Virus record (IMG/VR): IMGVR_UViG_3300025892_001961
Coordinates: 1-44,854 of that record
Length of the DNA: 44,854 bases
Strand: one strand, 5' to 3'
DNA from: a virus
The translations under genes were made by a program, and so were the position numbers. Below the pieces are notes generated by a model. The model searched no databases and was not told the DNA's origin. It saw only the letters and a program-made list of their open reading frames with translations. Of the stretch, positions 3,001 through 4,060 are shown in pieces (positions within the stretch are counted from its first letter, which is position 1; every line of letters begins with the position of its first letter).

Positions 3001-3139
3001 CACCAGCATTTTTAATTTGTAATGTATTGACTGCCTCCATCAAGGCACTAAGATAATCCTCCTCTTCGGAGAGATTATCCAGGTCTACACCCATCTCTAA
3101 GAGTATTTCTATTGGATCGGTGCTAGTCCTAGATGCCAT
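68..3139 (-). CDS. Tail tape-measure-like protein, 1023 aa
   Basis: This large structural protein probably sets tail length and fills the tail tube. The N-terminal 200 residues are charged. They are followed by several hydrophobic segments (about 205-350). After them comes a Gly-rich stretch with a motif common in tape-measure proteins (VPAMLTAGEFVMSRG, near residue 455). The middle is rich in Pro, Ser and Gly. Near the C-terminus a 32-residue unit occurs twice (about 861-892 and 922-953), sharing LNAQKYA-x-SKGKY and TY-x2-YQAAVDAQ. The gene follows a gp26-like gene and a small overlapping ORF, the usual place for a tape-measure gene behind its chaperones. T4 uses gp29 for this role; I see no clear gp29 sequence signature, so the call rests on size, motif and position. 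Its ATG overlaps the end of the small ORF. Confidence 0.65.
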   Translation of the reverse strand: MASRTSTDPIEILLEMGVDLDNLSEEEDYLSALMEAVNTLQIKNAGDDRIGPLQQEIRKVRQKRKAADPKFKVRKTKISADAFKKGTASEVRDNVKTGVIDPSKLKFDSVEVGLKPKALPTSAIVPYQAPEAEEDTKAKTKKKEKPTNLLEQIAKSVTNIADTLKDQYNLKKKSGEFDRKKAQRDKRKLNESNLEKGFSALFKTAQKIIAPVRGIFDKIFGFIANILIGKFLVKLIGWISKPDNQKKLKNIIQFLGKHWPKLLSLYLVFGTGLGRFIFSLTKTLIGGAVKLTVAIAKLLAAKKLVGGLGARKFARLLGGKKGKFLAAGLTTALTVGGTYAATSALAGGGGETQTQGFSGGGLAKPPKVEPLPKNAERNQGMSGAQKGMVFGSLFGPLGMAAGAGIGSLFDNFGNKKDDTVKLSSPAKVELEVSSGTDGEVDGPGGTDKVPAMLTAGEFVMSRGAVQKYGVKALEGMNAAGGGTNLPKMVKDKVYAAGGGYIGRGTGAGSPGGGYGDNRGYATGSITSDPLGALDRILGQSSGGRVRLPGGGEQDSKPSSSSPKPRVQPKDPVIPSSSNKPPSSSEQETSKDQKADGIPERMLKSPTFRDSGLLYLRSMLGGLGGPITESQLSEASRVELNNAIARAKQRTSSELAFAEKQLQEAKDGGFNKQILAERQSVRDRLKRGEVRVLYQDYYDGNDEKNITPAAENAKSILGKFWATSTEKGGYRVVNEKYDFVEMPDPMAVLRGDSSGVSKGAKAGEDITLRQKLQALHQLNPLARSMNVDMILGEKPNPKRDLGNIMKYTIGGIADHFTGNLFDFDQQGGRSLMNPSGKKEEKAREKVDKQLSTLQGMSKQQVLNAQKYAESKGKYFSSTDGRTYESYQAAVDAQKSTSATPVAPAKPASSAKPATPSMSQAEALNAQKYAASKGKYYSSADGKTYPNYQAAVDAQTKFHKGGMVMGRNKPKISSPEAPMQAKVSVIRIPKTKSNDSLPAPRGGSRTPDINAGNGSASKRKILGIV
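281..559 (-). repeat. Two copies of a 96-base coding repeat in the tape-measure-like gene
   Basis: Bases 281-376 and 464-559 encode the same 32-residue unit with conservative changes. The copies share exact stretches such as the one covering the YQAAVDAQ codons. They are separated by an 87-base Ala/Pro/Ser linker. This looks like a duplicated small domain, possibly a ligand- or surface-binding module near the C-terminus. Confidence 0.8.
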
Positions 3140-3308
3140 TCGATTGCTGATGCTTTAGTTTCTCTTCTTCAAGATGTTGTTGTAATAAAGCGACGTAGAT
3201 ATCACGTTCCCATGGTATCATATTTTCAATCTCCGTTAATGAGTATTTATGGTACTGAATCAAGGAAAAATTTAATCTTAAGTATGATTCAAGATTCATA
3301 TGAACCAT
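3129..3308 (-). CDS. Small overlapping ORF between gp26-like and tape-measure genes (possible chaperone T part)
   Basis: This 59-codon ORF starts at ATG 3308-3306 or at the second ATG (3299). It ends at a TAG (3131-3129) that overlaps the tape-measure start. The product contains MNLESYLRLNFS and a helical MIPWERDIY motif followed by a charged tail (LLQQHLEEEKLK). Aromatic/acidic helical features of this kind are seen in the 'T' part of tail-assembly chaperones. The ORF stays open upstream through the end of the gp26-like gene in the -1 frame, joining it at a slippery T_TTT_TTC. No good ribosome-binding site precedes either ATG. It may therefore be made only as a frameshift extension, though independent initiation is possible. 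Confidence 0.6.
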   Translation of the reverse strand: MVHMNLESYLRLNFSLIQYHKYSLTEIENMIPWERDIYVALLQQHLEEEKLKHQQSNGI

Positions 3309-3310
3309 AC

Positions 3311-4030
3311 CTACGCGAAAAAACTTGCTAGTCCCTCAAGTACAACATCACTCTTAACTTTAGTAGCAGGGTTAGTCACAGAAACAGTATGCGATAACTT
3401 AGGCATTGTCTCAAAGAACTTCTCAATACCTTTGAACTGCGACGAGTTCATAGACTCAAGGAACTCATTGATTTCTTTCTTGGTACAATCTCCTGCTGCC
3501 CATACTTCTTCTTCACTACAAATAGATTCAATACAAGATGCAATCAAATCAAATGATTGGTCCATCGCATTCTTATCTTCAAAGTCAAAGTTGTTTTTAA
3601 TAAACTGTTCCAAAGAAGGATACTTCATGACCATCATCAAGTCATCACCAATCTTAATCTTATTATCATGTTCATCATCTTTCTGAATTTTAATGTCATC
3701 AATATTAATTGAGACAGGAACTTCAGTTTCTCCATCATCAGGACAAACGATATTGAGTTCAATCTCTTCACCAACCGATTTACCACGGATGTTTAGGAAG
3801 AGAAATTCAATATCAAATGTAGGGAGTTGTTCTACTTTGATACCTTTTGTCTTAATACAGTTCTTAATAACACCTTTGATGGCAGTAGTAATCTGTTTGG
3901 TATCTTCACTCTCCAGAGCAATGACTAAAATCTTTTCCTCTTTTACCAGGAAAGGTCTATATTGAATTGGTTCTCCGGTTGATGGCAACTCAAGTTCATA
4001 TGTTGGTGTGGCAATCTTTGGTAAAGGCAT
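3311..4030 (-). CDS. 26: gp26-like baseplate hub / hub-assembly protein
   Basis: This 239-residue protein resembles T4-type baseplate hub proteins of the gp26/gp51 family. These act in assembly of the central hub of the baseplate. The N-terminus (PTYELELPSTGEPIQYRPFLVKEEKILVIALES, residues 8-40) is typical of the cyanophage form, and the rest is acidic and helical. It sits between the gp54-like gene and the tape-measure-like gene. A late-type CTAAATA box lies 31 bases upstream of its start. Position and the slippery end suggest it may also serve as the 'G' part of a tail chaperone pair. I cannot separate gp26 from gp51 by eye. Confidence 0.75.
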   Translation of the reverse strand: MPLPKIATPTYELELPSTGEPIQYRPFLVKEEKILVIALESEDTKQITTAIKGVIKNCIKTKGIKVEQLPTFDIEFLFLNIRGKSVGEEIELNIVCPDDGETEVPVSINIDDIKIQKDDEHDNKIKIGDDLMMVMKYPSLEQFIKNNFDFEDKNAMDQSFDLIASCIESICSEEEVWAAGDCTKKEINEFLESMNSSQFKGIEKFFETMPKLSHTVSVTNPATKVKSDVVLEGLASFFA

Positions 4031-4060
4031 AATATCCTATAAGTATTATTTCAGTATGAT

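Follow-up and report, generated by a model that had tools for sequence, protein, structure and literature searches.

We find that the gp26-like gene of this virus ends in a conserved slippery site, T_TTT_TTC, at which a -1 programmed ribosomal frameshift very probably yields two proteins: gp26 (TAC-N) and a longer gp26-51 fusion (TAC-NC). The sequence, its conservation, the frame, the absence of other usable start codons from many relatives and the statistics of the two stimulators were computed here. The window, by which we mean the whole stretch of DNA analysed, is a 44.9-kb virus record (44,854 nucleotides); among named phages, myoviruses of Synechococcus and Prochlorococcus are its nearest relatives.

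On the minus strand of the window, three ORFs stand in succession: the gp26-like gene (4030-3311; 239 aa), which we propose to be the short tail assembly chaperone TAC-N, then a small gp51-like ORF and then a 1023-aa ORF. The gp26-like gene matches PF12322 (T4_baseplate, E=5e-74) in Pfam and PHROG_150 (baseplate hub, E=2.5e-78) in PHROG. A mechanical ORF caller begins the small ORF at its own ATG (3308-3129), and another in-frame ATG follows at 3299; the matches of this ORF are to PHROG_634 (baseplate hub assembly catalyst, E=3.5e-26) and to the C-terminal end of PHROG_150. A first-pass annotation had read the end of the gp26-like gene as AGT TTT TTC GCG TAG, and the sequence bears this out: the heptamer (3323-3317) is in phase and conforms to X_XXY_YYZ in the zero frame, and it is separated by the single codon GCG (3316-3314) from the zero-frame stop TAG (3313-3311), the second codon after it, which agrees with the "two codons before the stop" of that annotation. 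The Shine-Dalgarno (SD)-like GAGGGA (3337-3332), a proposed upstream stimulator, also stands where it had been placed, 8 nt before the heptamer, the spacer being CTAGCAAG. A -1 slip at this site does enter the frame of the small ORF, as had been claimed: it gives RVGMVHMNLESYLRLNFSLIQYHKYSLTEIENMIPWERDIYVALLQQHLEEEKLKHQQSNGI, which ends at 3129, and the predicted fusion is 300 aa long, with a junction peptide that includes EGLASFFRVGMVHM. The -1 frame extension (3317-3129, minus strand), a gp51-like C-terminal domain, comprises 62 residues after FF and a stop, and it overlaps the start of the 1023-aa ORF (ATG at 3139) by 11 nt.

Our set of relatives, to which further queries and named phages were added, held 266 sequences with 218 non-redundant gene ends. 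All 80 of the nearest relatives have TTTTTTC, followed two codons later by a stop across which the -1 frame is open. An in-phase T_TTT_TTN was present at every one of the 214 non-redundant loci of the group, and at the gene end of all 89 genes that remained after clustering at 80%; elsewhere in the gp26 gene it occurred in 7 of 20,483 codon triplets. TTTTTTC itself lies 3 nt before the stop at 198 of the 218 non-redundant loci, and the heptamer type is kept in 28 of 28 clusters at 60% identity. Most of the loci that do not have TTTTTTC keep a slippery variant, either T_TTT_TTT (the Pelagibacter-phage relatives and two other loci) or T_TTT_TTA (seven loci), and the latter, which is the HIV-1 heptamer (U UUU UUA), replaces Phe with Leu while retaining slipperiness. 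All three codon columns of the slip site rank in the top seven of the gp26 alignment for synonymous constraint (z of 4.2, 2.7 and 2.1). We rejected a chance run of Ts because in-phase T_TTT_TTN is so rare elsewhere in the gene and because the slip columns are constrained. The first-pass annotation had proposed an alignment of relatives as the check, with loss of the heptamer or of frame continuity counting against the site; what we found, across hundreds of relatives, was that heptamer, phase, -1 frame and stop are all conserved.

The exceptions among the 218 were the Vibrio phages VAP7 and K476, which have shorter T runs, the T4-type phage Melville, which has none, and one locus (L258) that is 99% identical to the gp26 of HTVC008M. 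At this last locus the best gp26-matching ORF stops early (SDCV*), possibly through an assembly error or because the gene is broken. Close to its 5' end, the gp26 alignment also has some columns whose synonymous constraint equals or exceeds that of the slip codons, and these may lie in an untranslated leader. At these 5' codon positions (near 4031-4060 in the window, probably just upstream of the ATG) TTA is found in 70 of 89, and the conserved stretch is perhaps a late promoter or a ribosome-binding region.

All 211 complete -1 tails are open, with lengths of 58 to 71 codons. Could the small ORF nevertheless be an independent gene, gp51, with ribosomes reinitiating at its own ATG just past the gp26 stop and the heptamer being incidental? 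The window does offer in-frame ATGs at 3308 and 3299, and gp51 is given as a gene of its own in all of the inspected database records that list it. These two ATGs are not conserved across the group, however, and at 62 of the 214 loci the first ATG comes at codon 18 or later past the slip, although the residues before it are conserved as the peptide FFRIALLHxxLxxYYxxNFAL. Codons 3-17 are without even a GTG or TTG at 47 of 206 loci, and differences within the stretch before the ATG are concentrated at the third positions of the -1 frame (0.62, versus 0.38 and 0.33). Because the peptide is conserved at so many loci where at least 18 codons pass without an ATG, separate initiation is inadequate as the only route to gp51, and we rejected it as such; it also leaves the invariance of the heptamer unexplained, and we regard an independent gp51 as highly improbable. 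Translation from its own ATG only, which the first-pass annotation had listed as counter-evidence, is thus hard to reconcile with the many relatives that have no usable start.

The existing annotations of gp51 bear on the same point, since late starts drop conserved residues. In syn9 the annotated gp51 starts late, at MHHHKW, and conserved residues are lost; in RN05-S gp51 is annotated with 29 aa, and the avDM12 record has no gp51 gene. No ATG was found near the real beginning of gp51 in syn9 or avDM12. Among the roughly 20 phage records that we inspected, several cut gp51 short or miss the gene, and none annotates a joined gp26-51 product. Where ATGs do exist, separate initiation could supply an additional, free gp51-like fragment; in the window an ATG lies 2 nt after the stop, and therefore reinitiation could also yield a free fragment of 59 aa.

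We next turn to the signals that flank the heptamer. In the 80 nearest relatives, the SD-like element is always GAGGGN or GAAGGG. Its anti-SD duplex energy exceeds what codon usage predicts for the encoded residues (0 of 300 usage draws reach it, with 89, 48 or 28 representatives). Under column permutation, the element was significant at 89 and 48 representatives and not at 28 (37/300). Shuffle controls in general remove relatedness in part only. A simpler rule, by which GAA GGH never encodes the Glu-Gly pair, is true of the 80 nearest relatives and fails in the wider set, so we base the claim for an SD-like element on duplex energies.

Downstream, the window carries a hairpin (3313-3279, minus strand; arms 3313-3301 and 3291-3279) with a 13-bp stem, a 9-nt loop and a minimum free energy of -14.1 kcal/mol; it begins 3 nt after the heptamer, and its first G-C pair is 6 nt after the heptamer. 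Across 125 representatives, the local folding energy drops immediately 3' of the heptamer. This downstream structure has a mean z of -2.07 against synonymous redraws, versus -0.4 to -0.85 for controls, and it beats permutation of codons for the same residue (0/200) even at 60% identity clustering; the hairpin signal stays significant against amino-acid-preserving controls down to small representative sets. The inner stem of the window's own hairpin is common to 12 loci, with compensatory changes at three pairs (G-U/U-G, C-G/U-A and U-A/A-U). The hairpin is absent or weak in some clades, and the syn9-like loci have no clear one, so a hairpin stimulator is not universal. We also rejected the idea of one universal hairpin, because relatives carry several different hairpins at the same place, and for this reason we report only a position statistic and covariation in one sub-family. 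Judged from these sequence comparisons, the SD-like element and the downstream hairpin, our two proposed stimulators, go beyond what coding needs. These signals also bear on whether RNA polymerase, rather than the ribosome, joins the frames by transcriptional realignment, slipping where the Ts are repeated: the window has six consecutive Ts, and one Pelagibacter-phage clade has more, but six Ts are generally regarded as short for efficient transcriptional slippage, which moreover would not select for an SD-like element at ribosomal spacing or for a hairpin a few nucleotides downstream, and we give this explanation very little credence.

With ribosomal frameshifting as the preferred reading, the majority of ribosomes would complete the 239-aa gp26 (TAC-N). 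A minority would be slowed between the GAGGGA element, which they have just passed, and the hairpin that they are about to enter, and both tRNA-Phe would re-pair one base back (UUU/UUU), so that slipped ribosomes would bypass the TAG and produce the 300-aa gp26-51 fusion (TAC-NC). Both the slippage itself and its rate are what we infer here. By analogy with lambda G/GT, the short and long forms would both coat the tape measure, while the C-terminal domain, present in fewer copies, would bring in the subunits of the tail tube.

The tail chaperone role that we suggest for gp26 and gp26-51 draws on position, on the short/long design and on the literature. The locus lies directly before the 1023-aa ORF (3139-68, minus strand), which matches PHROG_35029 (unknown function, E=2e-78) and, weakly, tape-measure profiles (about 8e-4), and which by its position and these weak matches is likely the tape-measure protein. 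The earlier claim that the small ORF ends over the tape-measure start thus stands as regards the overlap, and its identification of the tape measure is likely from position, with weak support from profiles. An AlphaFold model of gp26 is confident (pLDDT 86.5). Comparison of this fold with known chaperones gave no significant match, the HK97 chaperone 2ob9 having the highest probability (0.38) among the weak PDB matches listed (E=2.3), and a sequence search of solved structures found no match. The structure model predicts, with moderate confidence, that the -1 tail is helical.

How does this locus relate to that of T4? Genes 26 and 51 of T4 belong to the same families as the window genes (PF12322/PHROG_150 and PHROG_634), and hhalign aligned the gp26-like family with T4 gp26 (E=1e-23) and the -1 tail with T4 gp51 (E=2e-5). 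Residues 3-248 of T4 gp51 align with PHROG_150, the C-terminal end of that profile included, and its C end also matches PHROG_634; it therefore has the domain plan of the fusion. T4 gp26 corresponds to the short form and lacks a slip site. Because T4 gp51 combines a gp26-like domain and the tail in one gene, T4 uses two genes, not frameshifting; unlike the window, it has them on opposite strands and has no slippery site. Genome searches agreed: T4 and Melville have two genes, and each genome with the frameshift layout has a single full-length gp26 locus. Not every member of the T4 family, Straboviridae, has the two-gene layout, because two of them, Aeromonas phage avDM12 (Chrysonvirus) and Vibrio phage R10Z (Schizotequatrovirus), show the frameshift layout. 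It is possible, if somewhat doubtful, that three parts, namely an SD-like element, the slip site U_UUU_UUN and a covarying hairpin with a sequence rebuilt between clades, make up a recoding signal at the cyanophage-type site that is undescribed in such form, and that the T4 two-gene arrangement evolved by replacing the frameshift.

Vladimirov, Gautam and Davidson (Virology 2022, 566:9-15) are reported to have identified the T4-like chaperone genes and to have found frameshifting seemingly conserved in several T4-like groups, with T4 having separate genes 26 and 51. Because frameshifting in T4-like phages was published in 2022 (Vladimirov et al.), the window site belongs to a published kind; it is a well-supported, unannotated case of that kind, with stimulator details that may be new. 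The first-pass annotation had called a G/GT design not textbook for T4-type tails, which is right for T4 itself but overlooks the frameshifting already in the literature for T4-like groups. Two papers citing Vladimirov et al. 2022 describe -1 poly-T frameshift signals in TAC-N genes of T4-like phages (PMC12846349) and fused genes in some T4-like phages (PMC10885494), and according to a 2016 review (PMC5009743) G-T frameshifting is conserved widely among phages with long tails, T4 being the exception. The likeness to lambda G/GT is one of design, namely a chaperone gene, placed before that of the tape measure, near whose end a -1 slip gives a long form besides the short one (PMC5009743); we claim no sequence similarity, and the window has U_UUU_UUC with SD-like and hairpin signals. 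The TAC genes of Vandenendeviridae and Andersonviridae (phage Adele, PMC12846349) are alike in having a poly-T slip near the TAC-N end and a -1 frame that stays open in every genome which that study examined, but they differ in their GTTTTT motif and belong to other virus families.

Correct annotation would give marine T4-like phages long and short tail chaperones, and the spread among clades suggests that frameshifting and the T4 two-gene solution are alternative routes to the same protein pair. The conserved signal also lends itself directly to testing how cyanobacterial ribosomes frameshift. At the same place, VAP7 (Ackermannviridae) and K476 have GTTTTTC and CTTTTTG, respectively, with a TAATG overlap and a downstream ORF without a PHROG_634 match. 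This site could be one of P-site slippage or of reinitiation, and its shorter T runs resemble the Adele-type poly-T site.
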